64,000 bases of DNA from Odiellus spinosus. Lineage: Eukaryota; Arthropoda; Arachnida; Opiliones; Phalangiidae. Both the position numbers and the translations under genes were made by a program. Location of the stretch: NCBI GenBank assembly GCA_963920705.1, contig OY987239.1, forward strand, positions 7,815,504 to 7,879,503, given 5' to 3'. Of the stretch, positions 9,101 through 43,186 are shown one piece after another; position 1 is the stretch's first letter; every line of letters starts with the position of its first letter. Under the pieces are notes generated by a model. That model worked only from the letters and a program-made list of their open reading frames with translations, ran no database searches and was not told where the DNA came from.

Positions 9101-12100
9101 CCAGTGTCTAGGTGACGTTGTACCTAAAAATTTACAAGAGGCCCCCCTTCATCCTCCTAGGCGAAATACTGCGTGGTAAGAAGAAACACACAAATTTTAC
9201 AACTAAAATTGAGAACTGAAATTTCAGAATTAAATTGCGTTTGTCCCCAGTTTTTTTCCCGTGACGTTTTCATCATTGTTTGAACTTAGTTTTTACATTT
9301 TAGCGAACCTGTTAATTTTTAATTATTACCAGAAGCCGATGAAACCCTCCTTTGAAGTCTACTACTCCAATGTTCCATATAGCGCTCCTCTCTGTATGGG
9401 TAAAATTCCAAATTTTACGAGATCGGAGGGGTCCTACTTCATCCCCCCTGTCTACGGAAAATTGGAAATTCTCTCTCTTCACAAACGACGACGTTTTTGG
9501 ACGAACTCCAAGGCTGCTAGAGATATTCGCTCGACGAACTCCCGCTCCGAAAACATCTACCGTTAGGAGGCGTACGAATCGCGCCTTTTGAGAATAACCC
9601 ATACAGAGAGGGGTAGACAAGACCCGGGAGTAATAGACTTCAAAGGAGGGTTTCATCGGCTTCTGTTATTACTTATTCCTCGTAATATACCTTCACAAAA
9701 CAGTAGATTTGCATTTGGCCACAAGTGCGCCTTGAATTTATGAGCGAAATGTTTAAAACGCAGCCAATATTCTTTTATCTGAGATTTCGATTTGAATCTT
9801 GGCGTTGTGCTAAGCGACATGATAGCTGACACCAAAAACAAGAAAAATACCAATAGCCACGAAACCTGTACAAATGATATAGAATAGAAAGAACATCTAA
9901 ATCCCAGGTAAGAGTATTTTAAATAGACACAAGCCAAGTTCTCAGTATAGACAGAAGCCGATGAAACCCTTCTTTGAAGTCTACTACTCTAATGTTCCTT
10001 ATAGCGCTCCTCTCTGTATGGGTAAAATTCCCAATTTTACGAGGACGGAGGGGTCCTACTTCATACCCCTGTCTACGAAAAATTGGAAATTCTCTCTCTC
10101 CACATACAACGACGTTTGGTTGACGAACTCCAAGGTTGCTAGAGATATTCGCTGGACGAACTCCCGCTCCGAAAATATCCATCGTTAGGAGGCGTACGAA
10201 TCGCGATTTTTGAGACTAACCCATACAGAGAAGGGTAGACAAGATCCGGGAGTAATAGACTTTAAAGGAGTGTTTCATCGGCTTCTGGTATAGATTATTT
10301 TCAACCCTATTTTTCTATATTTCTAACTTTTTTTACTTTTAAGTAGTATAGTTAATGTTTAAGCCTGAACCATCTCTAAAAGCCGTTGAGATAGGCCCTG
10401 CCGAATGTGGAGATTAAACAGTTTCTTGTAGTACTAACGTCCACAAACACGTAGTCCTCCTACGACAAGTTGGCGCTAGAAAATTATGGCGTTCTCCTGA
10501 ACATACATCAGACCAGAGGTATATAATAACCCCCTTCGGGGGGAATTATGAAAGCCCCTACACTACCAATGCTAAAAATCACGAACAACAAGAGCCCGCT
10601 GCTGACTATCTAAGCCACTAGCTCGCGCTAGACTTCTCAATGTCGCTACTCTATAGTAAATGGTCTTTGTATAAACAAGACGGCTCGATTTGTGTTTGGA
10701 ACTTCCTGTCTCGGGAGTCAGGCTGTCTGTTAAAATGGAGTCGAAGGTTGACTTCAGCTCGCAAGTTCCGGAAGTGTGCGTAGGGAAAATTTAGTGAGGT
10801 ACAAAATGGTGTAACTATTTTTTGGGAGTAAAGCGGTGTGTCGATCCGCCGCGATTTACGCCGGGCACTTGTTGTTCGTCGATTTTGCCTACCTTTCATA
10901 CTTCCCCCGAAGGGGGTTATTATATACTTCTGATCAGACGGAAGGGTCTACTTTTTATGTTTTATGTGTTTTGTTTTTATATGAACTTTCGGTATAACTT
11001 ACAATCGGCTCGATGTTTAGAAACGTTAAACTGGCATTGATGTTTGGTTCGGGTGCGGGAGACAACAAGAATGTATAGCTGGGGAGAAAAATCTTGGAAA
11101 GCCTCGTGATATTAACATTCTTTAACGTCGCCAAAAGTGAATAATCGAAAGCCATCAAAAGAATGTCCATCTCCTAAAATATATTTAAATGAATCATGGA
11201 CCATGCATTTTAAACGCGAGGAAAAAGCAGTTTAGTTTAGGTACCCCACCAGCCACCACCATGACTTTCCGGTAAAAGGCCGAACAGGATATTGAGTACA
11301 TTCAAGGCCGTTGTTAAGAGTCAAAGGACGAATGACCGTTGGGGATTTCTATTCATATACTTACCATTGGTAGTTCAGCATTATTGAAAACGGTTTCTTC
11401 GTTAAGGTCAAATGATGAAATGTGAACAAATTCTAGGCTGAGATAAAATGGTAGATCAGCAGTTGTTATTTATGAGGAGGCATCAAGTAGTTTTCTATTC
11501 GTGTTGTCTCAATAAAAAATACTAGCATATTTTACGATGTGATTTAATTTACAAATTTAAACGCCAAGTGATTTGAACAAATTGCTTCCCAAACCAAAAA
11601 AAACTGATATCTCACATTGGTGTGATAACCAGTTATATAAATCGAAGAGCAACGAAGCTTATAAACACTGCTGAAGGAGGCTTACGACTTTGCTAATTTT
11701 GGGGGTGCAACTCATTCCTGACCAGTGGTGTTAGGCTATGTCTCGGACTATGTTAATGTTTGTTACGTACGTGTGGGCTTTAAAACTATTCATAACTTAT
11801 TTGGATATGAGCTATAGCAGAAGCCGATGAAACCCTCCTTTGAAGTCTATTACTCCCGGGTCTTGTCTACCCCCTCTCTGTATGGGTTAGTTTCAAAAAG
11901 CGCGATTCGTACGCCTCCTAAAGGTAGATATTTTCGGAGCGGGGGTTCGTCCAGCGAATATCTCTAGCAGCGTTGGAGTTCGTTAAAAAAACGTCGTCGT
12001 TTGTGGAGAGAGAGAATTACCAATTTTCCGTAGACAGGGGGTATGAAGTAGGACCCCTCCGATCTCGTAAAATTGAGAATTTTACCCATACAGAGAGGAG

Positions 12101-13004
12101 CGCTATATGAAACATTAGAGTAGTAGACTTCAAAGGAGGGTTTCATCTGCTTCTGGCTATAGGGAGACAGCTAAGAGCCAAGGGGAAAGAAAGCCTGACG
12201 TCATGGAACCCCCTTACTGGGGAAGCGCTTGTAAGGGCGAATACTGTAACTCCTTCAACAAGGGGGATGACACCGAGGTGAGAGATAGTAACCTCAGACG
12301 TGTCGTGCTGACTCCCTATAGTTTACAAAGATACAAGGGAGAGAAATCGGCCATCTTGATAATACACTTTTGGCGGCGCCTTAATAAATTGAAGGTCGCC
12401 ATCTTAAACGAAATATTTTTGGGTATCCATGCACTCGGGAAGTGTTTTTCGACGCAGTACTTACTATTCATACTGTTAGGGTTAAAACTACTATAGATAG
12501 AGTCTCGGCAACTATATAGTTTGTATTGTGGGAACTAGAGGCTTCAAGGGGAGTGATAGAGTCGCGCCATAGACCAGTATGAAATATCTCCAGCGTAGGA
12601 TCTTTCCACCGTAATGTCTCTAATGTTTACTAAAAAAAAACTATCACCTCGGTTGTTTCTTGGTGACAAAAATGGAGGATTGTGGGCGGAACTAAGGGGA
12701 ACGGGCCAAATGGTAGCTCCCTTCATAAGGCGCGGCAAAATGTCTATATGCAAGGTCTCGGCTAAACTAGACTCTAGGCCGGTCATTTCGTACGAAAACA
12801 ACATTTCAAATACTCTGAAAAAAGTAAATAAATTATTGTGTCTTAATAAAGTCAAATTTACTTGACACATCCTCATAATATCTCTTCGCCAAAAAATAAA
12901 CTGAGAAACGTAGATTTTAATGATTACCTTATGTTGGAGTATTGACGAACACCATCGTGTAACATTCGATAGACATCTGCCATCATATTCAGCAATAATG
13001 ATTC
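6106..13004 (-). CDS. Divergent ionotropic receptor (IR) gene 1, 5' end not found
   Basis: Seven exons on the minus strand join in phase: 12928-13004, 11365-11437, 11003-11173, 9691-9865, 8185-8408, 7326-7633, 6106-6334 (stop at 6106). They encode about 418 residues. IRs are iGluR-related ligand-gated cation channels of sensory neurons. The order is S1 ligand lobe (first three exons, ending near FLLSPAPEP), M1 (VSWLLVFFLFLVSAIM), M3 block (WRIVFMSWLLGVMFL, then ISSCLKSQF, equal to the iGluR post-M3 region), S2 lobe (FSPPIDESYGVAVFS), and M4 (VIVLYLIGNAIATVYVLL). Exon order, phases and most lengths match IR gene 2 (77/77, 73/70, 171/168, 224/221 bp). First exons matching gene 2 exons 1-2 were not found above 13004. 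Four MITEs sit in its introns. Ligand unknown. Confidence 0.8.
6975..7290 (-). mobile_element. MITE family M2 copy in the last intron of IR gene 1
   Basis: M2 is a roughly 320-370 bp element. Its ends contain CAACTTCCAGGGGCTACGG and, inverted, GAACTTACAGGGGCAGCG, and its middle contains GGTTACCGCCTAGTTTGTCT. CAGGGGC ends suggest a hAT-like origin, but clean 8-bp target duplications were not seen. Other copies: 13105-13375, 25530-25885, 30482-31135, 43372-43712, 47657-47998. Confidence 0.8.
8029..8176. mobile_element. Hairpin MITE next to an IR gene 1 splice donor
   Basis: Arms AGACCACTTCGATGGTAGAA and the reverse complement of the end at 8176 pair over more than 45 bp. The element ends only 8 bases downstream (on the gene strand) of the exon ending at 8185, so donor and hairpin nearly touch. 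A much smaller relative may exist at 26950-27002. Confidence 0.8.
9330..9665. mobile_element. MITE family M1, copy 2
   Basis: Complete copy with terminal inverted repeats CAGAAGCCGATGAAACC...GGTTTCATCGGCTTCTG. A 7-bp target duplication, TTATTAC, flanks it at 9323-9329 and 9666-9672. It lies in an IR gene 1 intron 25 bases past the exon boundary at 9691. Confidence 0.97.
9952..10287. mobile_element. MITE family M1, copy 3
   Basis: Complete copy flanked by the 7-bp duplication GTATAGA. It lies in the same intron as copy 2 of IR gene 1, on the other side of the M1 exon. Confidence 0.97.
10514..10932. mobile_element. MITE family M3 (CAGAGG ends), copy 1
   Basis: A 419-bp element with inverted ends CAGAGGTATATAATAACCCC / GGTTATTATATACTTCTG and an exact 7-bp target duplication ATCAGAC (10507-10513, 10933-10939). 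The interior is unrelated to M1. It has the same duplication length and CAGA-type ends as M1. Confidence 0.95.
11818..12155. mobile_element. MITE family M1, copy 4
   Basis: Complete copy with 7-bp duplication GCTATAG (11811-11817, 12156-12162), in an intron of IR gene 1. Confidence 0.97.
12163..12890. other. GC-richer intron segment of unknown nature
   Basis: Between an M1 copy and an exon of IR gene 1. It is richer in GC than the flanking DNA and holds short open frames on both strands (plus 12203-12496, minus from about 12865). No protein family or clear terminal repeats recognised. It may be an unclassified element. Confidence 0.4.
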
Positions 13005-13104
13005 CTGCCAAATATTTTATTTAAAACGAGAATCTCCCTCTTATATGTTCTAAATTTTAACAGCAGGGCAAGTAATCCCTCATAATTAACGAATTTTAAA
13101 TTTC

Positions 13105-13375
13105 CGTAATCATAAATCAACTTTCAGGGGTACAAATATAGTGATGAATTATCACAATAGATGGCGCGCCCACGCCTCACTATCTCTCGCTCTCGTACAT
13201 ATCCACGTATTACACCCGCTGATATGGGAAACGCGTCCAGTCTCGAAGCGCGAGGGGAGGGGTTACCGCCTAGTTTGTCTCTCTCATCATAGTTTAGCCA
13301 ATAAAATATGATCAGAATGGGAAATACGATAGCGACATCTCTTAACAGATCGGCGCGTAAAGAGTGACGTGAAAA
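13105..13375 (+). mobile_element. MITE family M2 copy
   Basis: Starts near CAACTTTCAGGGGTACAAA and ends near 13375 in the family's right part (AACAGATCGGCGCGTAAAGAG). The right terminus is lost where an M4 fragment begins. Confidence 0.8.
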
Positions 13376-14344: not shown

Positions 14345-14965
14345 ATAAAGACTAGTAATGCGTAACACAATAGTCGCTATCATAAAAGAGGAGGAGCTCA
14401 CGACGTCATCAGCTACGTCATAGCTTGTAAAGCTTATAGAGCTCGTGAGCATCGAGCATTTTTCAAGCTTATTTCTTCTATATCCAGGGGTCAGCTCTCA
14501 AGGTCGGGTCTCTCCCGAGTGACGTCTAGCGTTTTATGAAAACGCAAATAACTGCCCTCAGAAGCCGATGAAACCCTCCTTTGAAGTCTATTACTCCCGG
14601 GTCTTGTCTACCCCTCTCTGTATTGGTTAGTATCAAAAAGCGCGATTCGTACGCCTCCTAACGGTAGATATTTTCGGACCGGGAGTTCGTCGAGCGAATA
14701 TCTCTAGAAGCCTTGGAGTTCGTCAAAAAAAACGTCGTCGTTTGTGGAGAGAGAATTTCCAATTTTCCGTAGACAGGGGGGTATGAAGTAGGACCCCACC
14801 GATCTCATAAAATTGTGAATTTTACCCATACATACATTAGAGTAGTAGACTTCAAAGGAGGGTTTCATCGGCTTCTGCTGCCCTGTATAACCTTATCGCC
14901 ACGTGATTTCGTGACGTAGTTAGCAACATTCGAACAAGATGTCGCATCAACAAGTTCTTTTATAT
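14345..14965. mobile_element. MITE family L, long copy with nested M1
   Basis: Runs from CTATCATAAAAGAGG through GACGTCATCAGCTACGTCAT to the hairpin arm ending near 14965. M1 copy 5 has inserted into it, duplicating CTGCCCT. Similar long copies are at 28605-28870 and 44330-45030 (the latter interrupted by an M5 element). Confidence 0.75.
14559..14877. mobile_element. MITE family M1, copy 5
   Basis: Near-complete copy with a small internal loss. 7-bp duplication CTGCCCT at 14552-14558 and 14878-14884. Nested in a family L element, so it is younger than that insertion. Confidence 0.97.
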
Positions 14966-16420: not shown

Positions 16421-16757
16421 CAGAAGCCGATGAAACCCTCCTTTGAAGTCTACTACTCTAATGTTCGATATAGCGCTCCTCCCTATATGGGTAAAATTCC
16501 CAATTTTACGAGATCGGAGGGGTCCTACTTCATACCCCCTGTCAACGGAAAATTCTAAATTCTCTCTCTCCACAAACGACTACGTTTTTTTGACGAACTC
16601 CAAGGCTGCAAGAGATATTCGCTCGACGAACTCCGGCCCCGAAAATATCTACCGTTAGGAGGCGTACGAATTGCGCTTTTTTAAACTAACCCATACAGAG
16701 AGGGGTAGACAAGACCAGGGGGTAATAGACTTCAAAGGAGGGTTTCATCGGCTTCTG
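16421..16757. mobile_element. MITE family M1, copy 6
   Basis: Complete copy with exact 7-bp duplication ATATAAC (16414-16420, 16758-16764). Confidence 0.97.
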
Positions 16758-18439: not shown

Positions 18440-21400
18440 ATGTCAAGTGAAGTCATCAGGATATCTAGTTTCGCCGACCCTAAAGCCTTTGAAAAGTTTC
18501 CAAATTATTTCAAGTACAGGTAAATTGCATTTATCTATCTATAAATCTGTATATCTACATATATGATGAGGTGGACAGTAAAGCGTGTTCTTGGAACTTT
18601 TCAAATAATATTACCAGAGGTATATAATAACCCCCTTCGGGGGGAAGTACGAAAGGTAAGCAAAATCGACGAACAACAAGTGCCCGGCGTAAATCGCGGC
18701 GGATCGACACACCGCTTTACTCCCAAAAAATAGTTACACCATTTTGAACCTCACTAAAGTTTCCCTACGCGCACTTCCGGAACTCGCGAGCTGAAGTCAA
18801 CCTTCGACTCCATTTTAACAGACAGCCTGACTCCTGAGACAGGAAGTTCTAAACACAAATCGAGCCGTCTTGTTTATACAAAGACCATTTACTAGAGTAG
18901 CGACATTGAGAAGTCCAGCGCGAGCTAGTGGCCTAGATAGTCAGCAGCGGGCTCTTGTTGTTCGTGATTTTTAGCATTGGTAGTATATGGGCTTTCATAC
19001 TTCCCCCCGAAGGCGGTTATTATATACCTCTGGTATTACAAGTTAATTTCGTGCCAAAAAGCTTTTTTTGGTAGTGTAAGTAATCTTTAAATTTTTTCAT
19101 CTGATTTTAGATTTATAAATAGAACTGATTTTGTAATTGGAGTAATTATGGTAAGTTATTCGTGGTATTGAACTTGAACTTTACTCGTAATAGTTCCAGT
19201 ACGTCTTCCTAAAGTGTTATATTTGTTTCTTTTAAATTTCAGGAAACTCAAGTCTTGACACCTGCTGTTAACTTGTATTACGCCATGAAGGAATATATCG
19301 ACCGAGCGTTTAATGTTAAGTAAGAACAGAAGCCGATGAAATCCTCCTTTGAAGTCTATTACTCCCGGGTTTTGTCTACCTCTCTCTGTATGGGTTAGTT
19401 TCAAAAAGCGCGATTCGTACGCCTCCTAACGGTAGATATTTTCGGAGCGGGAGTTCGTCGAGCGAATATCTCTAGCAGCCTTGGAGTTCGTCAACCAAAC
19501 GTCGTCGTTTGTGGAGAGAGAGAATTTCCAATTTTCCGTAGACAGGGGGTATGAAGTAGGACCCCTCCGATCTCGTAAAATTGGGAATTTTACCCATACA
19601 GAGAGGAGCGCTATATGGAACATTAGAGTAGTAGACTTCAAAGGAGGGTTTCATCGGCTTCTGGGAATAGTGATTGACTTTTGCTATAACGTATTTAGCG
19701 TGATATTCGACTGGATTCCCTTCCAAAACTTGGTGAATTTCAAATGCTCCACAAACCTGAGTTCTAATGTACGTAATTACATTACCTAACCTAAATAACC
19801 CTATATATGGAGCAACTGATCTCAACTTTAATTGGACTCATTCAGGGTAACCTGATTGATTATCTGTTTGTTCCATCGGATGCCGTTACGTTGTACGGTT
19901 GCCAAGAGGCCTACCCAACCTCGATATTTACGTTCAGCGAAACCGTAATCGTCACCGCCGAACCAACTTTGAATATTGTCCCGTCACTCAATCTACTCAA
20001 AATGGAGAATATGGTACACATATATGGAATGCTTTGGTTTTTGTCTTAACATCGGCGTCTTTTGTTTCAGGTGACAGTATTGTTCGTGGTGTTATGTTGT
20101 ATCATCTCTCTGTTTATGACCGCGTCCATCTCGCGTCCATCGCGTTCATTCCCTACGAATTTTCTGTACAATTTCTGGGACACCTTTTTCACTTTCTTTT
20201 ACGAACGTAAGTTAGAAATAATTTTAGGGGGGGGGGCAATATTATGATATATAATTAAGGGCTACATTGTTCTAAACGCGTCTCTTCTAGCATATCCGAA
20301 TCTGTCTTCGGTTTCATCTGTTCGCATCGCGTGCGTCTCATGGTTAATAGGAGTGCTTATCATTTCCATTGAACTATCGAGTTCCCTGAAAGCGGAGTTC
20401 TCCATCAAAACGTACGACACCATGTCTTCGCTGGAAGATCTCGCTGATCACCATGACGTGAAGCCCTACGTCATGAGAAACGCCATTGAATTTCGCTATA
20501 TCAGTTTCATGGTACGTAAAGTCCCAATTAAAAACTTGAATCATTCAATGGAATTTCCGAACACAATGTCATTATTTGGGGTCGGTTTGACAAATACAGA
20601 GAAACCAGAAACGTCACATGAAGCAACTGTATACTGAAATCGCCGACAACAATCGCTTTCTCGATCTGCTGGAAGACATGATACAAGATGATTTCTACTT
20701 CAAATTGGCCGACACTCGAGACAAGATGGCGTTGGTCATCCATCGCGAATATTTGAACCGAGTCCTGGGTTTCGACTTGCAAAACATCAAGGAGAGGGAG
20801 TGTCCGGGCACCGATGAGGAACCTTGCAGTCTCAATGATTTGCCTCGTATCCAGATTGGAGTTGACGACGAAAAAAGGGACACCATGACCTTGATCAGAG
20901 CCAAACACATTCAAGAATCTAAATTCGCCAGGGAAATAGGCGATTTGACGTAAGCCAGACAACAGAGTGTGACGCATCGCACTGATACCCATTCGGCCGA
21001 ACAAAATTCCATTCGACCGAAAAACTCGAATATTGGGACAGAAAAATTGGCTTATATGGAAATTACGGGAATACAAAGTTTATAATAAATCTTTGCTACC
21101 GAAACATAATACAGTGGCTATTTTAAATGAGCGGTAGACCTAAACATGGTTTAGAAGAACAAAATATTTTTAAATATTTTAAAACCAGAAGCCAATGAAA
21201 CCCTCCTTTGAAGTCTATTACTCCCGGGTCTTGTCTACCATTCTCTGTATGGGGTTAGTCTCAAAAATCGCGATTCGTACGCCTCCTAACGGTAGATATT
21301 TTCGGAGCGGGAGTTCGTCCAGCGAAAATCTCTAGCAACCTTGGAGTTCGTCAAAAAAAAAAAAACGTGGTCGTATGTGGAGAGAGAGAATTTCCAATTT

Positions 21401-21874
21401 TCCGTAGACAGGGGGGTATGAAGTAGGACCCCTCCGATCTCGTAAAATTGGGAATTTTACCCATACAGAGAGGAGCGCTATATGGAACATTAGAGTAGTA
21501 GACTTCAAAGGAGGGTTTCATCGGCTTCTGACAATACTTGCTTTCTCGTAAATAGAAAAATTAATGACAATTATAGAATTCTGGTGTTGTTCGAAACAAA
21601 ATGCGCCGATTTTTACGACTTTCAAAACGCTTACAATCTGGAGTTTGTCACTTGGAAACCACCCGTTGAATCCTTCCATGCCCAGAAATTATCCGACATG
21701 AGAGAAATATTTTTCATGTTTTTCTACATGTCCTTGCTTACGATATTGGTCTTTCTACTAGAGATAATTTCGTGGAATTTAAAACTCTATTGCAAAAGCT
21801 CGAGCAAACAACGTCGTGAAAAATGCAAGGTTTCTATACAAAAAAGAATTAACTCTATCTTTGTGCAGTATTGA
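18440..21874 (+). CDS. Divergent ionotropic receptor (IR) gene 2
   Basis: Nine exons join in phase: 18440-18519, 19111-19150, 19243-19319, 19699-19768, 19846-20013, 20071-20206, 20291-20511, 20609-20949, 21577-21874. They encode 476 residues ending in TGA. Parts in order: S1 lobe (about 1-151), M1 (VTVLFVVLCCIISLFMTAS), pore region (NFWDTFFTFFYE), M3 (VRIACVSWLIGVLIISIE) with SSSLKAEF after it, long S2 lobe, M4 (IFFMFFYMSLLTILVFLLEI), and a basic tail with CKSSSKQRREKC. This is the IR/iGluR topology, so it is likely a sensory cation channel. Exon phases match IR gene 1. The first Met is provisional, because no signal peptide exon was seen. MITEs occupy introns 1, 3 and 8, and no disruption of coding exons was seen. 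Confidence 0.83.
18615..19032. mobile_element. MITE family M3, copy 2
   Basis: Same 418-bp family as 10514-10932, in intron 1 of IR gene 2. The flanks ATATTAC and GTATTAC differ at one base, consistent with an aged 7-bp target duplication. Confidence 0.93.
19327..19663. mobile_element. MITE family M1, copy 7, beside a splice donor
   Basis: Complete copy in intron 3 of IR gene 2. It begins 7 bases after the exon end at 19319, so the donor GTAAGAA is all that separates exon from element. Its 7-bp flanks (GTAAGAA, GGAATAG) agree at only four positions. Confidence 0.95.
21186..21530. mobile_element. MITE family M1, copy 8
   Basis: Complete copy in the last intron of IR gene 2. The flanks do not show a clear 7-bp duplication. 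A longer A-run lies in the middle. Confidence 0.93.
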
Positions 21875-22165: not shown

Positions 22166-22175
22166 TTAATGGAAA

Positions 22176-22512
22176 CAGAAGCCGATGAAACTCTCCTTTG
22201 AAGTCTATTACTCCCGGGTCTTGTCTACCCCTCTCTGTATGGGTTATTCTCAAAAGGCGCGATCCGTACGCCTCCTAACGGTAGATGTTTTCGGAGCGGG
22301 AGCTCGTCGAGCGAATATCTCTAGTAGCCTTGGAGTTCGTCCAAAAAAAGTCGTCGTTTGTGGAGAGAGAGAATTTCCAATTTTCAGTAGACAGGGGGGA
22401 TGAAGTAGGACCCCTTCTAACTCGTAAAATTGGGAATTTTACCCATACAGAGAGGAGCGCTATATGGAACATTGGAGTAGTAGACTTCAAAGGAGGGTTT
22501 CATCGGCTTCTG
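22176..22512. mobile_element. MITE family M1, copy 9
   Basis: Complete copy with exact duplication ATGGAAA (22169-22175, 22513-22519). Confidence 0.97.
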
Positions 22513-29000: not shown

Positions 29001-29616
29001 ACGCTAGGCAAGGACCACCTCTGGATCGATATGAGCAGAAGCCGATGAAACCCTCCTTTGAAGTCTATTACTCCCTGGTCTTGTCTACCCCTCTCTGTAT
29101 GGGTTAGTTTCACAAAGCGCGATTCGTACGCCTCCTAACGGTAGATATTTTCGGAACGGGAGTTCGTCGAGCGAATCTCTATCTGCCTTGGAGTACGTCA
29201 AAAAAACGTCGTCGTTTGTGGAGAGAGAGAATTTCCATTTTTCCGTAGACAGGGGGTATGAAGTAGGACCCCTCCGATCTCGTAAAATTAGGAATTTTAC
29301 CCATACAGAGAGGAGCGCTATATCGAACATTAGAGTAGTAGACTTCAAAGGAGGGTTTCATCAACTTCAGATATGAGTTAAGGGTGGCAATATCCCATTG
29401 TAAATACATGGAAAAAGTGCCTAACGACTCATCAAAATTGTCTAGTACTTTCACGGTATTTAAATATGCGCAAAATTTCATCAAAATCGTTAGGGGGTTC
29501 GCCCTTGTCCTTTAAATTATGAGTAAAACCTACCTTAAAACCATAGAAACGGCCGAAATTCCACAATCCCAGCTTAATTTCTGCTCAACGTGCTTTACAT
29601 TTACGAGAACTTTCAT
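26091..29616 (-). CDS. GUCD1-like protein (peptidase C39-like fold)
   Basis: Eight exons join in phase: 29534-29616 (Met), 28271-28339, 28069-28168, 27916-28013, 27146-27257, 26927-26951 (25 bp, tentative), 26554-26628, 26091-26176 (stop). The product is about 222 residues; human GUCD1 is about 240. Recognised from memory of the family: LSWDCGISAVSMVL (family WDCGLAC, catalytic-type Cys), TWTIDLAYIL with TIGVHPEY, AFYKNV, DLPAIVLVNSWLL, GHYIVVCGF with EIFYRNP (His), and FGTDEDVIFI at the C-terminus. Its role is poorly known; a cysteine-protease-like fold is inferred from the Cys/His pair. M1 copies occupy introns 1 and 4. No sign of decay. Confidence 0.88.
26283..26410. mobile_element. Old M1 fragment
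   Basis: Diverged remains of M1 (CCTTTGAAGTCTTATTTCTC, then ATAGCGCTCCTCTCTG and CTCTCTCTC) without ends. It lies in GUCD1-like intron 7 and indicates activity of the family well before the clean copies. Confidence 0.6.
27537..27848. mobile_element. MITE family M1, copy 10
   Basis: Copy with a short left-side deletion, in intron 4 of the GUCD1-like gene. Instead of a clean 7-bp duplication it has about 55 bp of imperfect direct repeat on each side (about 27449-27506 and 27849-27905). Confidence 0.93.
28605..28870. mobile_element. MITE family L, long copy
   Basis: Spans GTTGCTATCATAAAAAG to the hairpin arm GATGTCGCACCCACATC. In intron 1 of the GUCD1-like gene. Confidence 0.7.
29036..29370. 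mobile_element. MITE family M1, copy 11
   Basis: Complete copy with exact 7-bp duplication ATATGAG. The last bases read CTTCAG rather than CTTCTG. Confidence 0.96.
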
Positions 29617-30481: not shown

Positions 30482-31135
30482 AATTCAAATTTCCATACTC
30501 ATAAACCAACTTCCAGGGGCTACGGCCATTGGGGTGCAAATATGATTATCACAATAGATGGCGCGCCTGCGCCTCATTATCTCTCGCTCTCATACCTATT
30601 CACATAATCAAGAAGGATCAGACAAGGAGAGGAAAAGTGGGAACGGCGCGGTTCCTACTGCGTCGGCCTAAACTCCCACTCTGGGAGAACGGGGGACAGA
30701 CGGGGGTAGAGATGCTTCGTGGTAAATTGTTGTCACGTGGGTAAAACGGATCCTTTATGAGAGGGGTAGTAGCCGACGACGCTAGCGACCACGTGACAAC
30801 AGTTTACCTAGAGAATTTTCTATCCCCTTTCCACCCGAGTGGGAGGTTGACTCTTCTCTCTCTAACTCAACGCAGCCCCACTTTTCCTCTCCTTGTCTGA
30901 TCCTTCTTGACATAATACACCCGTTGTTATGGGAAACGCGTCGAGTCTCGATGCACGAGGGGAGGAATTACTGCCTAGTTTCTCTCTCGCTTCATAGCTT
31001 AGCCAATCAGAATAGGATCAGAATGGGAACTACAATAGCGACATCTCTTAACAGATCGGCACGTAGTGTACCCCAATGGCGCGATGCCCCTGCAATTTCC
31101 TTATCAATTTGGACTTGGCTACAAAGAATGAGAGC
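30482..31135 (+). mobile_element. MITE family M2 copy interrupted by an M5 element
   Basis: The two halves of an M2 copy lie either side of 30609-30909. The host reading continues across the insertion (CTATTCACATAAT | ACATAATACACCC). The stretch 31136-31520 shows nothing else. Confidence 0.85.
30609..30909. mobile_element. MITE family M5 (CAAGAAGG ends), copy 1
   Basis: A 301-bp element with ends CAAGAAGGATCAGACAAGG / TTGTCTGATCCTTCTTG and exact 7-bp duplication ACATAAT (30602-30608, 30910-30916). Much of the interior is a second inverted repeat (GTTGTCACGTGG...CCACGTGACAAC). Confidence 0.95.
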
Positions 31136-31524: not shown

Positions 31525-32927
31525 CTATTTCTTATCATATTTATAGAAACCTTCTCCAGTTTTTACCCCTAGTTTTCCCTCAGAAACTAATTTATTTAAC
31601 AAAGGTACGGGTTTGAATAATGGATTTTCTGGAAATTTCTCGTGCCAACCATCCAAAATAAATTTCGAAGTATCAAGACCCACGTAATCCGTTAGCTCAA
31701 TAGGACCCAATTTATAACCAGCCCCTAATTTCATAGCAGTATCAATATCTCTGGCTGAAGCATCCCCCCTTTCAAGCATTCTGATTGCTTCTATGGTATA
31801 AGGCACCAGTAAACGGTTAACTACGAATCCAGGCGTGTCACGACACGTTATGGTATATTTTCCAAGTTTCTTGCCAAACTCAAGCAATTGGTTGTGCGTA
31901 GCGTCGCTGGTTTCCTGGGTACGAATTACTTCGAGGAGTTTCATGACAGGAACTGGGTTGAAGAAATGAAGACCCCCAAATTTGTCCTTTCGTTGGGTAA
32001 CGGACGCAATTTCACCAATTGATAGCGACGAAGTGTTGCTCGCAAATATGGTCGTTTTAGGAGCAGCTTTGTCTAAAGATGAAAAGAGATTGTGTTTGGC
32101 AGTTATGTTTTCCACGATGGCTTCAATAACAATATCGGCGTCTTGAACGGCTTGAACAGTGTCCGTTTCAAAAGCAATTCTCGAAATTACATCCTAAAAA
32201 AAATTAGATTACCGGTATTTTATGATAATGTCATTTTTTTAAACTTAAAAAGTAGACATATGGAACCTGACTAAACTGGGGCCATGCTCACGAATTTAAT
32301 CTTTATTATAATCCTAAAATTCAATATTTCATTACACCTTTATCAAACTCGATCAAATGACCATTCAATCAAATATCACCTTATCCTTGCAGGGTTCAAA
32401 ATATGTTGGTAGCTTATCTATTCACTCTATATGACACCTTGATTAAATTCTAATTTTTGCATGATTTAACGAACAAATTTTATAAATAATCCTATAGAAA
32501 ATATTAATTAACTTCCATAAAATGGTCTTAGTTATGTCTACAGATAATACCTAGAAATACCTACTTCGCGAGTCCCACCAAATAAATCGTCTGCTACTCT
32601 ATCTAACGAAGGCTTAACTTAACAAACGGAATAATAACTTAAATTCGTACAAACCTGAATAAATTTCTGTCCATCTTCGGGTTTGGAAGCAAATTGCTTT
32701 TTTGCCACTCTTTCCAAACTCTTCTGAATGTTTGCTGACGATTTCTTCAACAAATCACCCGATAAATCGGAAAGTACCACGTCATGCCCCGATTGAGCGC
32801 TAACTTGGGCGATTCCAGATCCCATTAAACCCGCCCCAACAACCACGACTTTGGAAATATTTCGTTTAGAAATGGCATTTAATTTTAAAACGTTTTTCAT
32901 TAAAAGAGAACCTGATGATTGAGCCAT
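31525..32927 (-). CDS. 3-hydroxyacyl-CoA dehydrogenase, mitochondrial (copy A)
   Basis: Two exons, 32655-32927 (Met at 32927) and 31525-32193 (stop), give 313 residues, matching human HADH (314). The enzyme oxidises L-3-hydroxyacyl-CoA with NAD+ in mitochondrial beta-oxidation. Visible: a basic, hydroxylated N-terminus fitting a transit peptide; the Rossmann motif [33 protein letters not shown] with the catalytic His, its neighbouring Asn and the Glu; [11 protein letters not shown]; and a C-terminal [10 protein letters not shown]. Intron phase 0, donor GTTTGT. It is the most downstream of three head-to-tail copies. All key residues are present, so it is likely active. Confidence 0.95.
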
Positions 32928-33973
32928 GACCTCGTACACAATACACAAAGGCTTAAAGGTTATTAAACTCACTGACACAGAGTAACTGTGGTTGATTGAG
33001 TACTGGAAGATTCGCTCCGTACTCAGGCTCTCTCTTGATTCTCGTCTCAACTTGTACGTCCACAAAATGTAGTTGAATCACGATAAGATACTACTTCACG
33101 ATATTAACTTAGACAATTTTCGTGACGTCAGTAGAAGAGGGATCTAAATCTAGGGGGCTTAAGAGCTCCGGAGTCCGAAGTTCTAGAGTCTATTCCCTCC
33201 TTCGACACCCTCGATACTGGGTCTGAACCAAATTTTGGAAAAATACTATGGGCTATAATAGGCAAAAGTTTCACCAGTGTCTATTTACTCGGGTTAGGAC
33301 TTGAGATTGTCGTATCTGTTAGTCGGTACACAGTGTATAACATTATACCGACGCCGGTGTTGTGACTATATGTTTTTAAACATGTCATCATGGAAATAAT
33401 AGCAGCACGAAACCACAGCTGGTACCCATTCAAGACAGGAACAGTCGAAAACCGACGACAAGGTGAATAGATCCTATCCGGTGCTAGCGCAACAAACACA
33501 GGAGCGAGGTGGCCTCTGGTTCGGGCATCAGCTTTTGTTTTTAAGGAGATGGACCGTGCTGGGGAGCACACAACACCCCCGCTCGAGATGAAAAAACTGC
33601 TTTAGCACCAAAACAATGGCCTTCATCACAATATACCCAAAAATAAGCTAAAAATTTTAGTTTAGAGTATCTTTAAAAGATGACCACAGCAAAAACCCCG
33701 AAATAAATATAGAATAGAAAATTTTCCATCGATTTATAGGAAATAATTTAGGTATAATCTTCTTAGATATATATGTAAATTACATCTGACATTATTACAT
33801 AGCATAGGAAAATTACTTTTGAAATGATAAGAAAACATATTAAAATACCATAAATTATGACATAGAGCTGCTGAATTCCTAACCAAACCTATGTAACCTA
33901 ATGCGCAATCATACATAATGTTAAACGCCACTAAGAAAAAAGTATTCAGTCTCGGAAATGAACAGAAGTTTAA
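32928..33973. other. Spacer between HADH copies A and B
   Basis: No gene recognised. A short GC-richer stretch at about 33330-33570 has an open minus frame of 96 codons without family resemblance. 5' regulatory elements of copy A presumably lie at the left edge, but no motif is clear. Confidence 0.5.
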
Positions 33974-35727
33974 CTATTTCCTATATTTATAGAAACCTTC
34001 ACCCACCTTAAGTCCCAATTTACCTTCCCTCACTAAATTGTTAATTGAAGGGCTTGGTTTAAAAAGGGGATTGTCAGGAAATTGTTCGTGCCACACATCA
34101 ATAACACTTTTGATCGTATCTAAGCCAATGTAATCGGCTAGCCTGAGTGGTCCTATTTTTAAACCGGCACCGTGCACCATTGCATTGTCTATATCTTCCA
34201 AAGTGGCGTCCCCTCTTTCGAGCAGACGCAGAGCTTCGAGTAATTGAATAGAGAAAAGACGATTAACAATGAAACCTGGGGTATCCTTGCAGACGATGGT
34301 TGTTTTCCCTGAAACATAGTCTTAATTAAATTAATTGGCCTCAATTTAGGGTCATTCCACGTGAGATCGACCAATGGCTCCGGTAAGGTTCCATTTGTGC
34401 AGCTCCCTTTTGCGCAGATCCCACAAGCGCAGTTTTTCATTCGCGCAGTTTCCCATTTCCGCAGGTTTCCATTTCCGCAGTTTCCATTTGCGCAGTGTTC
34501 ATTTGCAGGTTATGTTATGTTAGGTTAGGTTAGTTAATCAATCGAACTAGCCTGTCCCTCTTGTGGGTAGCTCGAATGGCAAACTGCGCAAATGAAAATG
34601 CGCAAGTGGGAAACTGCGCAAGCGGACGCAAACCATGGCTCCATGGGTCGGCCAAATTTGTTCAAGTCACGTAATAAGACCCCACACTAGCTAATGTGTT
34701 TCTTGAAACATAAAATAAATATATTCTTTGTGTACCTATTTTTTGGCCAAATTGAAGGAGGCTTTGAAATGTTTCCTCGCTGGTTTCGGGTGCTCGAACA
34801 ACTTCTAGTAATTCCATAGTGGGAACTGGTATAAAAAAGTGCAAGCCACCAAATCTGTCCTGCCTGTTAGTGACCTCAGCAATTTTAGATATTGGCATCG
34901 ACGAAGTATTAGTGGCAAATATGGTCTTTTCCGGAGCAATTACATCCAAAGCTTTAAAAAGCTCTTCCTTGGCGGCTAAATTCTCCGGGATTGCTTCCAC
35001 GATTAAATCAACGTCTTGAATATCGTCTTTTTGAATTATAATATTTGGTTTTGGCGTAATTTTGCCAAGTGTTGTCTGTAGAAATAATTTTATAGAATAT
35101 GAAAACCCTTCCTTCGAAGATTGGTCTTTAATGCTAGCAAGGGATGCGTTCAGTTGATGAATACAAAAAAAAAAGCATCGATGCCAAATTTATCCGATAG
35201 GCATCGTGACGTCAGTGGCATTCGTACGGATTTTTAAAATCGATGTGCCATCGATGGGCATCGTGATTTTTCTAACTGTACGCTCCCAAAAATGCTGAAT
35301 AAGGGATCATACGGTAGTAATTTCAAATTACACTAGAGTAGATTTAAAAAGCTCATTTATACATGAATATACTATCTGCAGAAATAGTTTAAATAAAAAC
35401 CAGATCTCCAAAAAAGGTCTAAAAATGCTAATAAAAAATATTATTACTAACCTCAACAAAATGTCGTCTTTCTTCAGAATTTGTGGGATACTTATTTTTA
35501 GAAATTATTTCGACGCCATTACGTATTTTCGTCAGTGAATTTTTCAACAAACAACTGTTTAAGTCGGACAATATGACGTCATGACCACTTTGAGCGCAAA
35601 CTTGAGCAATTCCTGATCCCATCAAACCACTTCCAATCACAACTACTCTAGAAATTCGTTGTTTGCGTAAAAACATAGTTGAAAATGTACGCGAAACAAC
35701 AATTGAACCGACTTTGAAAGCTGCCAT
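33974..35727 (-). CDS. 3-hydroxyacyl-CoA dehydrogenase paralogue (copy B), catalytic Asn changed
   Basis: Three exons, 35452-35727 (Met at 35727; an in-frame Met also at 35811), 34736-35075 and 33974-34308, encode 316 residues. It has an Arg-rich transit-like start, [10 protein letters not shown] for NAD, and ends GEGFYKYRK. The catalytic segment reads [16 protein letters not shown]: the His and Glu remain, but the Asn after HFF (Asn161 of human HADH by recalled numbering, which helps hold substrate and His) is Ile. Intron 1 falls at the same place as in copy A; intron 2 (phase 1, after QKIG) is private. The frame is open throughout, so this may be a low-activity or repurposed enzyme rather than a pseudogene. 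Confidence 0.92.
34370..34645. repeat. Degenerate GCGCAG repeat inside a copy B intron
   Basis: Around 12 short units related to GCGCAGTTTCCATTT, on both strands either side of a central GTTATGTTATGTTAGGTTAG stretch, making an imperfect palindrome. Probably the arms of a small element whose ends were not identified. Confidence 0.6.
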
Positions 35728-36294
35728 ATTAACAATTAATCTTGGCGGGAGGGAGTTATTAAGCGTAGGTTTAACAATAAAATGAATATTTGATAATCTA
35801 GGCCTTGGCACGATACTAGGTCACCATTGAGTAGTGGCGTCAAAAATCCATCGCCTACCGTAATTATTGATTATACTAGTAGTTAACCTAATTGCTGTTG
35901 TACACAGTGTTACAAAATGTTTCCAATCTAGCGAATTAAAACTAAAGTCAAATGAATAATTGCAAATAAGCCACAAACAACCTTGAAAGTCAGAAATATA
36001 TCACAAAGTATTGTAACGTCATACCCTTCTATCTTTACCCGAGTGTCAACCCCCTTTCCCCCTTACACAGTAGGCCTAAATTTATGGGGATCGTTCCTAA
36101 AGAATGCCTCATATGTTACATTACCTTTAAACATTCAGTTAAACATCTCAAGTCGTGATTGATGGTTATTTAACTTAGGGATGGAGTGGTTTTTTTTTTG
36201 TGAAAAAATTGTGTACAAGCACAGATAAAGGCAACTTTCACCATCCCCTCGTTGAAAACGGTATTCCTGATTCGTTAGCCTTAAATTGTGTCAT

Positions 36295-36485
36295 AATGAC
36301 CTTATGCTTTCTAGATGGCGGTGACGTATTCGCCTATAATCGCTGTTATAGGTCAGCCCTTATACTGCCGAGTTGAAAGATATATCGTTGAAAATGGCGA
36401 GGAATGACGTCCTATTCGTGACTTATAACAGATCTTGGGGCCTAATACGTTACCGCCATTTAGAAAGCATAGATCTTCATGTCGC
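36295..36485. mobile_element. Imperfect inverted repeat upstream of HADH copy B
   Basis: GCTTTCTAGATGGCGGTGACG on the left pairs with CGTTACCGCCATTTAGAAAGC on the right. A short open frame over it is not supported as a gene. The rest of 35730-36660 and 37000-37460 shows nothing recognisable. Confidence 0.6.
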
Positions 36486-36662
36486 AGGAAAAAACTGCAG
36501 AATAGGGGTTTCACTACCAAACTTTCGCGCCTCTGGTGGCCGGGAATTGAAACGTAAGTATGTCCACCCACCATTTTCTTCATTTTACTTTCCTTTTATG
36601 TGAGGGGAGAAATGTAGTGTTTCTCAGCTCTCTAGGCCTTTGTACATGTATTTGCCTTATAG

Positions 36663-36999
36663 CAGAAGCCGATGAAACCCTCCTTTGAAGTCTATTACTC
36701 CCAGGTCTTGTCTACCCCTCTCTGTATGGGTTAGTTTCAAAAAGCGCGATTCGTACGCCTCCTAACGTTAGATATTTTCGGAGCGGGAGTTCGTCGAGCG
36801 AATATCTCTATCAGCCTTGGAATTCGTCAAAAAAACGTTGTCGTTTGTGGAGAGAGAGAATTTCCAATTTTCCGTAGACAGGGGGTATGAAGTAGGACCC
36901 CTCCGATCTCGTAAAATTGTGGATTTTACCCATTCACAGAGGAACGCTATATGGAACATTAGAGTAGTAGACTTCAAAGGAGGGTTTCATCGGCTTCTG
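36663..36999. mobile_element. MITE family M1, copy 12
   Basis: Complete copy with exact 7-bp duplication CTTATAG, between HADH copies B and C. Confidence 0.97.
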
Positions 37000-37461
37000 C
37001 TTATAGTTACTTTTATGACGTGCATACCTGTGATAAAGGCCTCAGCATGTAGGGCTATAAAGATAGTAAGACCTATATTTTATATGATTTACATGTACGT
37101 ATAAAACGTTACAGCTTTATCTAAGCAAAAGCCAGACTAATTTGTCGTCTATAAATATTCAATAATTATACTTTTAAATTCATAATCAATTGGAATAGTA
37201 CCGATTGTAAATGTTGCAAAAATGGCGTGAATGAAAACGCGAAAGGGCACAGGTGATTGACTTATTAGGGTTATTTGAACAAATGGGATGATTTTCAAAT
37301 TATAGTTAAAGGTGATAGGCTTAGTGTTAGCCTACAACGTTAAGAAATAATTAAATGACAAGCCATGAAGTTAATTCTTATTAATTTATGCAAAATATTT
37401 AACAAATTCCCAAAATCACATCATAGTTAGCCCGCTTGGTTTAGTCATTGAAAATAATCGA

Positions 37462-39450
37462 CTAAATCTTCTTTCCAGACTTATCGTATTTGTAAAAGCC
37501 TTCGCCAGATTTGATACCTAATTTTCCTTCAGCCACTTTTTGGTTAATGATTTTAACTGGTTCAAACAAGGGATTGTCCTTGAATTTTTTAGCCCAATCA
37601 TCTCCAATGTGTTTGGCAAGATCCAACCCCGTGTAGTCTTGCAGTTCGAAAGGGCCCATGGGATATCCAGCTCCCAGTTTCATGGCGATGTCTATATCTT
37701 GAAAAGACGCGTCACCGCGTTCGTACATTCGTACAGCTTCCGCGAAATAAGGTATCAGAAGACGATTGACGATGAACCCTGGTGTGTCCGCGCAAGTAAC
37801 CGTGGTCTTGCCCAAATTCTTGCCAAATTCCATTAGTTTTTGATAAGTTTCTTCGCTCGTTTGCGGTATTCGAATTACCTACAAATATGATTTTAATAAT
37901 CAAAATCGAAGGAAGCAATCGGACAATGGTTCTTACTTCAACGAGTTTCATAACAGGTACCGGATTGAAGAAATGCAACCCTCCAAAACGATCCAAACGT
38001 TTTGTAGACGCCGCTATGTCTCCAATACTGAGAGAAGAAGTATTACTCGCAAAAATAGTCGAGGGTTGAGCTACAGCGTCAATTGCAGAGAATACCATAT
38101 GCTTAATTTCAATTTTCTCCACGATAGCTTCAACGACAAGATCAACGTCTTTTCCCGAAGCTTTCAAATCGGTTGATAAAGTCAGCCTCGACAATGATTC
38201 GTCGACAAATTTCTTGGCATCGTTCGTATTGTCTCCGAACTTTTTCTTGGCAACTCTTTGAATACTCTTTTCGATTCGGCCCTTCGACTTATCTAAAAGA
38301 TCCTTGAATATGGGAAAATACTTATCAACTATCTAACTAACAACAAGAGAATTTTATCTCAATAAATTGTGATGGATAAGGGGTTGATTTAATAAAGTCC
38401 CATATTGTAACACAAATTCCCAAATGATCGAGAGCCACGCCCACATAGGCCACGAACACCAAACATAAAATTGTCACATATATTACATAACATGTGGAAA
38501 AATATAGTTGTCCAGTATGCTAGAATACCACATGCCTAACCTTACTTAGATTGCAGTCCATTGCCCACAAACTAGCTAAGTGGTTATCTTGTATACTAAT
38601 GGGACGCGACAAACCTTACCTTAACTACTACATGATAAACGGAAAATATTTTCTCTACAATGCTCAGCAGGTTTCTGATGCATTAAACATTGCCTACCCT
38701 ACTTCGTCCAAAGATTCGGAGTCTCTGATATTTTATTGAAAGCCTAAATCCCACCCTAACCTATTTTAATAAACTTATAACAACTGCGCGTGTCGATAAT
38801 TTGTGCTTAAGGATTTAAATCATAAAACAGGACAAAAGGGCTTGCCCAACTTGGCGATTTTTTTATTAATTCCCTCGGCGAAAAAAAAATAATAATTGGG
38901 ACGCGTAAAAGCAAATTTCTGTAATGGCAATCAGAAATAAAAATAATTTATACTGTACAGCGACGTTAAAAAGCATTGTATCTCTAACTCATTAACACCA
39001 TATCTATGGTTAGAACTTAAGCACACCCTGCTTTCAATCAACGTTTTTCAAGCTTTTGCTTTTCCTAGAGAAGCTGATAATATGAAATACATTTACATAT
39101 CTTCTTTGCTGTCACTTGAAGCTTGATAGCGTGGGTTAAATGAAAAGCTTGATTTAAGCTTCAACAAAAGCTCGATTCTTGGCAAAAAAAGTCCCTTTAC
39201 ACTCCTTTACGCTAGCCTTAATTACGTATCTACATGTACATATACTTACTTGCGATACGTCAACCAAAGTCACGGTGTGTCCAGTCTGCGCCGCGACTTG
39301 GGCAATACCAGAACCCATAAGCCCGCCCCCCAGTACGGTTACTTTGCTAATAGACGCATTACGAACGCTACGGTAGTTATACTTGGCTATGTTCGAGTTG
39401 CAAAGGCTTAAAGAAGAAGCGACCACTTTACGCAAGCTAGTGAATGCCAT
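37462..39450 (-). CDS. 3-hydroxyacyl-CoA dehydrogenase (copy C), with a one-base frame problem
   Basis: Exons 39250-39450 (Met at 39450), exon 2 ending at 37937, and 37462-37878 (stop). The NAD motif [10 protein letters not shown], catalytic [27 protein letters not shown] and C-terminal [10 protein letters not shown] are present. Exon 2 should start after ...TTCAAG at 38303 (DLLDKSKG), but four Cs at 38280-38283 where three are expected shift the frame. Using the next AG (TTTTAG, exon start 38293) restores an open frame and phase 0 throughout, replacing DLLDKSKG by ISRRG and giving 324 residues. Either a real insertion compensated by a cryptic acceptor, or an assembly error in a homopolymer. 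Intron positions differ from copies A and B. Confidence 0.88.
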
Positions 39451-39904
39451 CGTTAATTTTTAAAATTGAAGAGACACGTCTAGCGAATATAAACCGGCTT
39501 TTGACTTAGCGAGTACAGAGATAATTTTTGGGCCGAAAAATTTGTATTTTAACAGCGCACCAAGCTTCGGGTTGATAAGATTATTATTTTGTATTCCCCC
39601 TCACGGTTGTTGGCTTACTACTACACGCTATAACCATAGTTATCAAGTAACATTTCGATTGACATTAAATGCTATTAGAAAAAAAAAATTTCCGAGCGTT
39701 CGGCTTCAGTGACAGGAGTAATGGTTATGGATTATAAAACATATTTCCTCAAACGAAATTCGTATACACAGTACAGTACATGTATTTTTAGCTACACCAA
39801 AAGTGTAGCTATTACATTCGGTGGTTCGCCTCCGTCGCCGCCGTTGGAAATGACGAAATTCGCGAAAATCATGCATTAGCGTAGAAGCTCGCGTAGAAGA
39901 AAAT

Positions 39905-40325: not shown

Positions 40326-40562
40326 AAAAATTAAAAGTGGAAAAATGAAAAAGTGAAAAGTGGAAAAATGAAGTGTCATTGGTGTAGCTATTCTTATAGG
40401 CTTGACCATCTTGTATAAAATTATTTTGTGAGTTTTGGAGTAATGATAGAAACTGAGCGGAGTTACACCGAATGATAAACCTCGGTGAATAGAAAGTAGT
40501 CTTTGCAAACTTTTCGAGAACAAGACTATTTCCAGGCGCCTTTCTTATATATGGTAGGGTCG

Positions 40563-41283
40563 CCTAATTCTGAACGCTTCTAATTCTGAACGCTTCTAAT
40601 TCTGAACGCTTCTAATTCTGAACGCTTCTAATTCTGAACGCTTCTAATTCTGAACGCTTCTAATTCTGAACGCTTCTAATTCTGAACGCTTCTAATTCTG
40701 AACGCTTCTAATTCTGAACGCTTCTAATTCTGAACGCTTCTAATTCTGAACGCTTCTAATTCTGAACGCTTCGAATTCTGAACGCTTCGAATTCTGAACG
40801 CTTCGAATTCTGAACGCTTCTAATTCTGAACGCTTCGAATTCTGAACGCTTCGAATTCTGAACGCTTCGAATTCTGAACGCTTCTAATTCTGAACGCTTC
40901 TAATTCTGAACGCTTCTAATTCTGAACGCTTCTAATTCTGAACGCTTCTAATTCTGAACGCTTCTAATTCTGAACGCTTCTAATTCTGAACGCTTCTATT
41001 TCTGAACGCTTCTATTTCTGAACGCTTCTATTTCTGAACGCTTCTATTTCTGAACGCTTCTAATTCTGAACGCTTCTAATTCTGAACGCTTCTAATTCTG
41101 AACGCTTCTAATTCTGAACGCTTCTAATTCTGAACGCTTCTAATTCTGAACGCTTCTAATTCTGAACGCTTCTAATTCTGAACGCTTCTAATTCTGAACG
41201 CTTCTAATTCTGAACGCTTCTAATTCTGAACGCTTCTAATTCTGAACGCTTCTAATTCTGAACGCTTCTAATTCTGAACGCTT
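40563..41283. repeat. 16-bp satellite array (TAATTCTGAACGCTTC)
   Basis: About 45 near-perfect 16-bp units. Variants TTCGAATTCTG and TATTTCTG are clustered, as expected from local duplication of altered units. The array is unrelated in sequence to the 16-bp array at 163-1918. Confidence 0.97.
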
Positions 41284-41685: not shown

Positions 41686-43186
41686 ATGACTAGTAATAGT
41701 ACCCAGAAGTCTTCCTTGGATGACAAAGAGACTAATAATGATGTAATCTCTAATTTCGTAAATTGTATACTTAACCATGCTGCAGAGTGAGTTTCATAAC
41801 CATTACCATTACGAAATTGTTTTGAGTTATCGTAATTGATTAAAATTACGTACATAGATCGCTGGTGGCCAATAAGAGCAAACAGAAACTGCAGAATTTC
41901 CGAGCTGTTAAAAAATTTCAAAACAAGTAGAGTAGCATGCTTTTTGGCTGTCTTATGTACCTTTACTTATTTTCTCTTCCAGATTTCGTGCTGAGGTTTC
42001 CAATCTTAAAGGGTTGACCGAGACTTCAATTGATTATAGCTTACTGGAATCAAAAATAGTAAGAGTTGTGTTATATAATTTTGTGTTGGCTAGAGTTTTT
42101 TTTTGTGACATCTTTAAAGTTAAATAGTAATAATAATAGTTAGGAATATAAAGGTTATTAGCAGCCTCATGTAACTTACATTTTAACAATAGAGTGAGCT
42201 TTAGGGCTGTACATAAAGATATTTTTTATATAGGCCAGATTAAGTAGTCTTTGCTTTCAACTCGTCCTCGGAACCAGAGATCTCTGGTGTCTTGAACAAC
42301 TACACCGGTCCGATGAGTAGTCCAACTTAATCAATTTCTAAAATATTATAAATTAATAAACTAGTCCCTGGTTTCAGTGACCCTCATTTTTGGCCCAACC
42401 AATTAATAAACCGATTTATTTTTAAGCTGCTTGTGAGCCCCATAGCCCAATATTTCGAGTAGTAACCGTGATTTTTAAGAGATTTAGGCTGCATTTGTTA
42501 CATAATTATTGAAAAATTTCACTAGTCAAAATGCCAAGTGATATCGATTTTCTTTAATGAATTTTTTTTTTTTTGGCTCTTGAGTTATGTACAGTCCTTG
42601 GTGAGCAGACTAATTCTAATTGTCGTCAGAAGCCGATGAAACCCTCCTTTGAAGTCTATTACTCCCGGGTCTTGTCTACCCCTCTCTGTATGGGTTAGTT
42701 TCAAAATGCGCGATTCGTACGCCTCCTAACGGTAGATATTTTCGGTGCGGGAGTTCGTCCAGCGAATATCTCTAGCAGCCTTGGAGTTCGTCAAAAAAAA
42801 CGTCGTCGTTTCTGGAGAGAGAATTTCCAATTTTCCGTAGACAGGGGGTATGAAGTAGGACCCCTCCGATCTCTTAAAATTGTGAATATTACCCATACAG
42901 AGGAGCGCTATATGGAACATTAGAGTAGTAGACTTCAAAGGAGGGTTTCATCGGCTTCTGTTGTCGTCTACTTCATAATCCACTCCCTTAAAGGGATAAT
43001 GAAGTATACTAAAAAATATTTATGGTCGAAAATACATTGTTATTAATCAGTTTAACATGCTAAAACTATACCTTTTCCTCCAAGAAGGAACAGGAGCTAT
43101 TAATCGAAATGCTACAGGAGAAAAACCATTTCCTTAAGAACAATGAAGTAGATCTGAGCCAAGAAAATGATTCTAACAGTGAATAA
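41686..43186 (+). CDS. Small coiled-coil protein, unrecognised
   Basis: Three exons join in phase: 41686-41786 (Met), 41983-42058, 43085-43186 (TAA), for 92 residues. Residues about 1-20 are polar (DDKETNND). They are followed by a helical stretch (FVNCILNHAAEFRAEV) and a C-terminal coiled coil (LLESKIKEQELLIEMLQEKN), then an acidic tail (SQENDSNSE). Size and layout suggest a subunit of a larger assembly, but I do not recognise the family. Intron 2 contains M1 copy 13. Splice sites are canonical and the reading frame is clean. Confidence 0.7.
42627..42960. mobile_element. MITE family M1, copy 13
   Basis: Complete copy with exact 7-bp duplication TTGTCGT (42620-42626, 42961-42967). Confidence 0.97.

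Follow-up and report, generated by a model that had tools for sequence, protein, structure and literature searches.

In a 64-kb stretch of the genome of Odiellus spinosus (contig OY987239.1, positions 7,815,504–7,879,503; hereafter the window) we found four families of miniature inverted-repeat transposable elements (MITEs), designated M1 to M4, which are dissimilar in sequence and yet share 7-bp target-site duplications (TSDs), a length that is supported by uninserted relatives of one occupied M2 site. The elements end in CA..TG and insert into a palindromic target. In their anatomy they are ordinary MITEs. Tentatively, we infer that their movement depended on an enzyme supplied in trans, for which a hAT-like transposase working with a 7-bp stagger is the likeliest candidate, at slightly less than even odds; that a single enzyme, or close kin of it, served all four families would be part of the same inference.

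The largest family, M1, had been described in the initial annotation as thirteen full or partial copies of an element of about 337 bp. This count was borne out, as the window holds twelve two-ended copies and one truncated copy, and BLAST inside the window added one old fragment (26287–26353, minus strand, 73–74% identity). The ends CAGAAGCCGATGAAACC occur with 0–3 mismatches at both edges of the twelve copies, located between 9330 and 42960; the thirteenth copy (277 bp, minus strand, also delimited by BLAST) carries this end at one edge only, at 4506, and stops at 4782. According to their ends and flanks, nine copies lie between exact 7-bp repeats, all nine as previously listed: on the minus strand those at 9330–9665 (TTATTAC), 9952–10287 (GTATAGA), and 16421–16757 (ATATAAC), and on the plus strand those at 11818–12155 (GCTATAG), 14559–14877 (CTGCCCT), 22176–22512 (ATGGAAA), 29036–29370 (ATATGAG, with three mismatches in the right end of the element), 36663–36999 (CTTATAG), and 42627–42960 (TTGTCGT). 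Three copies have unlike flanks and no exact TSD, namely 19327–19663 (plus strand, GTAAGAA / GGAATAG) and 21186–21530 (plus strand, TTAAAAC / ACAATAC), both judged by flank comparison, and 27537–27848 (minus strand, ATAAAGT / CTTAAAG), which was delimited by BLAST and has a deletion near one end. Possibly these copies lost their duplications by later mutation or by exchange between copies.

The M1 consensus has 337 bp and a GC content of 47%, compared with 37% for the window, and the thirteen copies, eight of them on the plus and five on the minus strand, diverge from it by 1.5–5.7%. Its terminal inverted repeat (TIR) is near-perfect over 38 bp, where the consensus ends agree at 37 positions, and a looser agreement reaches about 72 bp. 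In 20-bp bins, divergence from the consensus amounts to 0.8–1.8% in the outermost 40 bp of each side and to 1.5–6.5% in the interior. The longest stop-free stretches differ from copy to copy, no reading frame is kept across the copies, and a Pfam scan of one frame spanning M1 gave no match. M1 thus is short, repeated, bounded by TIRs and TSDs, and devoid of a conserved reading frame, as is characteristic of a MITE. All thirteen copies lie within the first 43 kb of the window (P = 0.006 under a uniform distribution, a value computed post hoc after the data had been seen).

The duplication length was assessed in several ways. Exact flanking repeats of 7 bp are present in nine of the twelve two-ended M1 copies, and none were found at lengths of 3–6 or 8–12 bp. 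At the separations of the M1 copies, 924 of 200,000 random positions gave a 7-bp match by chance, and none of 132 comparisons between the left 7-mers and the right 7-mers of other M1 copies matched. Moreover, a scan that made no use of M1 searched for elements of 100–1500 bp with CA..TG ends, at least 12 of the first 16 bases alike between the two ends, and an exact flanking repeat. It retrieved eleven elements with 7-bp repeats, two, one, and one with repeats of 4, 5, and 6 bp, respectively, and none at 8–11 bp. The same scan of 20 simulated windows (first-order Markov) yielded on average 0.0 elements at 7 bp and at most 0.1 at 5–9 bp. Eight of the eleven elements belong to M1, and the other three represent M2, M3, and M4. 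The initial annotation therefore stands in identifying a MITE family with genuine 7-bp duplications; that three further families share this length had gone unmentioned. Among the discarded candidates of other scans, the flanks of those with repeats of 8 and 9 bp (45744–46097, 54023–54121, and 54004–54140) continue an inverted repeat and are not duplications, and the 6-bp rows CGTACG and AGCGCT are palindromes within M1.

M2 is represented by an element at 30609–30909 (plus strand) with the ends CAAGAAGGATCAGACAAGG, a perfect 33-bp TIR, and the TSD ACATAAT, and by a second copy of 90% identity at 44590–44881 (minus strand), which has the TSD ATAAACC and TA for CA at one end. The sole copy of M3 (4994–5309, plus strand, ends CAAGAATYCATT) is flanked by CTACTAC, and M4, with the ends CAGARGTATATAATAACC, by ATCAGAC at 10514–10932 (plus strand); for the second M4 copy (18615–19032, minus strand, 96% identity) flank comparison gave ATATTAC / GTATTAC, which agree at six of seven bases. 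When one copy per family was compared by BLAST, the best match between families had an E-value of 0.17, so that M2, M3, and M4 have no clear sequence similarity to M1 or to one another. Altogether, the four families comprise 17 two-ended insertions, 13 of which have an exact 7-bp duplication, one a duplication matching at 6/7 bases, and three none.

Direct evidence for the duplication length comes from M2. Its copy at 30609 sits in a repeat, formed by the flanks of 30609–30909, that has five uninserted relatives in the window (7032–7283, 13095–13359, 25530–25802, 43431–43711, and 47666–47936; 81–84% alike). The occupied site reads CTATTC-ACATAAT-[M2]-ACATAAT-ACACCC and an empty one CTATCC-ACATATT-ACACCC, with ACGTATT, ATGCATT, ACGTATT, and one base-shorter version in the others. 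The seven bases are present once in each empty site, one of which lacks a base, and twice in the occupied site, which fixes the duplication length at seven. For the M1 copy at 14559, too, the window contains an uninserted relative (28665–28867); this site has a 5-base gap at the point of insertion and cannot fix the length.

The initial annotation had called a 7-bp duplication unusual. It is indeed uncommon, yet no fewer than four groups of DNA transposons have been published with it, namely Galileo, 1360, the fungal hAT7 elements, and Kyakuja, and a 7-bp TSD has also been described on a fragment of a retroelement (PMC1852546). MITE families are classified largely by their ends and their duplication length; the rule followed in Repbase asks for identical TSD lengths and for termini that align over positions 1–11 (PMC4455052). 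For M1 to M4 the length by itself would point to the P or Dada superfamilies, and it is the outer bases of the target that point to hAT instead.

The nine M1 sites with exact TSDs conform to a 13-bp palindrome, TNA[NTNNNAN]TNA, that is symmetric about the fourth base of the duplication. With the duplicated bases numbered 1 to 7, T at position −2 (8/9) is mirrored by A at position 10 (9/9), A at 0 (7/9) by T at 8 (5/9), and T at 2 (8/9) by A at 6 (6/9). Symmetrised and summed over the 13 positions, the information amounts to 3.6 bits; when nine sites were drawn at random 20,000 times, no draw reached this value (mean 0.86, standard deviation 0.29, maximum 2.44). Because the motif was derived from the M1 sites themselves, the sites of M2 to M4 provide a fairer test: the five of them agree with the motif at 19 of 30 positions, which 37 of 100,000 random sets attained, and the four with an exact duplication at 16 of 24 (equalled in 42 of 100,000 random sets). 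For M1 copies lacking a TSD, seven half sites scored 2 to 4 of 4. The counts among the 14 pooled sites were 12 for T2, 10 for A6, 11 for T at −2, 12 for A at 10, 10 for A at 0, and seven for T at 8.

This target resembles that of Tol2, a hAT element whose insertion sites follow the motif TNA(C/G)TTATAA(G/C)TNA with conserved flanking bases at ±1 and ±3 outside the duplication (PMC2753552). Both have TNA on either side of the duplication, T as its second, and A as its next-to-last base. Unlike M1, Tol2 duplicates 8 bp (PMC2753552), and the M1 motif corresponds to that of Tol2 with one central base fewer; the comparison between the two concerns the target only. Features typical of hAT targets, although not strictly defining them (T at position 2, A at the next-to-last position, and Tol2-like TNA flanks), are thus found at the sites of M1 to M4. 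Scored over the 14 sites, the Tol2-type motif reached a z of 8.0 with the eight positions given in the paper, including S, or 8.3 with six positions without S, whereas the motif of 1360 and P reached 3.7 and that of Galileo 3.3. On this basis the target appears to lean towards hAT over the superfamilies suggested by length alone.

The most serious alternative, which we consider rather unlikely, is that M1 to M4 are MITEs of the P superfamily and depend on a transposase that resembles those of Galileo or 1360 and has a stagger of 7 bp. Galileo and 1360 duplicate 7 bp (PMC4168063, PMC3276498, PMC2775673), in keeping with the 7 or 8 bp typical of the superfamily, and like M1 they use a palindromic target that extends past the duplication. 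P and 1360 target ANAGT..ACTNT, and Galileo targets AANGT..ACNTT with the duplication GTANTAC (PMC4168063), which the TSDs TTATTAC of M1 and CTACTAC of M3 and the M4 flank GTATTAC resemble. These P-type motifs, typical rather than strictly defining, score above background as wholes (z 3.3–3.7), but their characteristic bases are not the rule at the sites of M1 to M4. The outer bases here are T and A, whereas the A and T that P, 1360, and Galileo have in these places occur in two and none of the 14 sites, respectively, and G1 was found in only two and C7 in six. The absence of G1 and C7 does not discriminate between the superfamilies, because hobo, a hAT element, also has G and C at these positions (the published targets are GTNCGNAC for hobo and GTTNAAC for 1360; PMC3276498). 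As T2 and A6 do not discriminate either, the case against P depends mainly on the outer T and A, which, as judged from the motifs, separate the hAT target of Tol2 from the P type. A further comparison, which also weighs against P, is offered by the P-MITEs of Anopheles gambiae, which like M1 are short, non-coding, bounded by TIRs, and thought to be mobilised in trans; they differ in duplicating 8 bp, as do seven P subfamilies with autonomous elements described alongside them, and in having the ends common to identified P elements (PMC1562414).

Several observations weigh against a hAT-like transposase as well. The hAT superfamily usually generates duplications of 8 bp, and its termini follow the rule YARNG; the ends of M1 to M4 all show YAR, and the G at base 5 is found only in M4. 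The target evidence has weak points of its own: T2 and A6 are common to hAT and P targets, the missing G1 and C7 are uninformative in view of hobo, the outer bases of hAT targets are represented by Tol2, and the P-type motifs, too, score over background. The S of Tol2 at the first duplicated base is matched in only five of the 14 sites (nine at position 7), the six-position motif was derived from the M1 sites, and Tol2 was picked for comparison after the motif had been seen. In addition, the Tol2 motif is called weak in the paper describing it (PMC2753552), and three of the twelve two-ended M1 copies lack a TSD. Finally, the superfamily had to be read from ends and target only, since none of the 40 stop-free fragments scanned matched a transposase.

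The statement of the initial annotation that hAT elements give 8 bp holds as a rule and applies, for example, to BuT2 of Drosophila (PMC3942097), but published exceptions exist: hAT5, hAT6, and hAT7 have TSDs of 5, 6, and 7 bp, respectively, with hAT7 occurring in rust fungi (PMC12730594). M1 departs from the usual hAT length and agrees with the hAT7 exception. The comparison with hAT7 concerns TSD length, and hAT7 elements differ from M1 in being autonomous and fungal. To illustrate a query, the Repbase paper combines "hAT" with "7-bp TSD" (PMC4455052). No animal hAT with a 7-bp TSD was among the literature matches listed in our search, which did not extend to subscription journals and Repbase.

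If a hAT-like transposase is responsible, an enzyme encoded elsewhere in the genome would bind the terminal repeats of M1 to M4, cut the elements out at their CA..TG termini, and join them to the target with a stagger of 7 bp, one base under the usual 8; filling of the gap by host repair would then leave the 7-bp duplication. The favoured target of such an enzyme would be the palindrome TNA-NTNNNAN-TNA. It is conceivable, albeit doubtful, that in an animal lineage of hAT-type transposases the stagger became one base shorter, 7 instead of 8 bp, that the Tol2-type target was kept, and that this lineage drove four or more MITE families of unrelated sequence within a single genome. If so, a palindrome that lost exactly one central base and was preserved in all other respects would imply that the spacing of the two strand-transfer sites can shift by one base while the reading of each half-target remains unaltered. 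A hAT partner would put on record, for an animal host, a Tol2-type target used with a stagger of 7 bp; entries for 7-bp hAT elements may already exist in Repbase.

The list of candidate superfamilies in the initial annotation, P-like elements and Dada, has to be revised: P remains a candidate, hAT7 and Kyakuja were omitted, and Dada fits poorly. Dada elements have TSDs of 6–7 bp, but are reported to insert into specific small-RNA genes and to be devoid of TIRs (PMC3706591). The targets of M1 are scattered and its copies bear TIRs, and searches of the window for tRNA genes and Rfam families gave no match; a Dada origin of M1 to M4 is hardly credible. Membership in the Kyakuja-Dileera-Zisupton (KDZ) group appears quite improbable to us. 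Kyakuja elements share 7-bp TSDs and CA..TG termini with M1; they are, however, fungal, and the two example families described lack TIRs, in contrast to the 38-bp TIR of M1 (PMC12730594), although other members of the group may possess them. Zisupton and a Dileera family, in turn, duplicate 8 bp (PMC12730594). Alternatively, all four families might be driven by a superfamily that is not yet described and is marked by CA..TG ends and a stagger of 7 bp. The families agree in duplication length, ends, and target despite their dissimilar sequences and could not be tied to a known transposase. We regard this as distinctly unlikely, as every feature shared by M1 to M4 already occurs in some known superfamily, and a 64-kb window with MITEs need not contain their transposase. 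Should the partner not be a hAT-like enzyme, four families sharing ends, length, and target would be good bait for the transposase.

In agreement with the initial annotation, which had stated that the driving transposase is not in the window, Pfam searches detected no transposase in 40 of the 59 stop-free fragments of at least 90 amino acids, the other 19 (seven in tandem arrays and twelve overlapping M1 copies, sorted by eye) and all shorter fragments having been left out of the scan. Patterns derived from the M1 and M2 ends had no matches in viral contigs. A 21-mer of M1 had a single match in prokaryote genomes; the stretch of the contig around it has a GC content of 68% and diverges from M1 right past the pattern, and we attribute the match to chance.

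Besides M1 to M4, the window contains other repeats and coding remnants. A single element at 55083–55367, perhaps flanked by a 5-bp duplication (TGAGA), has 42-bp inverted repeats (88%, CCTAGGAGGATATAAGG). At 45720–46119 lies a foldback-like element of about 400 bp with 76% inverted-repeat identity and ends near ACAGGGTGTTTCGAAAATGGTGGTA, which we take to resemble a mariner-type MITE. The segment 54004–54140 is a near-perfect palindrome of 137 bp (98% self-complementary) whose flanks continue the inverted repeat. Long tandem arrays occupy 160–1927, 40564–41283, and 49786–50662, with units of 16, 16, and 31 bp, respectively, and 97–99% matches. A reading frame at 59341–59616 is perhaps a gag remnant, as its end resembles a CCHC zinc knuckle, for which the Pfam match was weak (E = 0.015) and did not reach the cut-off. 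On the minus strand, 31528–39459 apparently harbors three adjacent 3-hydroxyacyl-CoA dehydrogenase gene copies, the coding sequence of each being broken up into several reading frames; M1 is present between copies two and three. These genes point to a eukaryotic, probably animal, host. Compared with solved structures, one fragment of them was most similar to L-3-hydroxyacyl-CoA dehydrogenases (one of them named mitochondrial), followed by F54C8.1 and by 3-hydroxybutyryl-CoA dehydrogenases, which presumably are mammalian, worm, and bacterial proteins, respectively.

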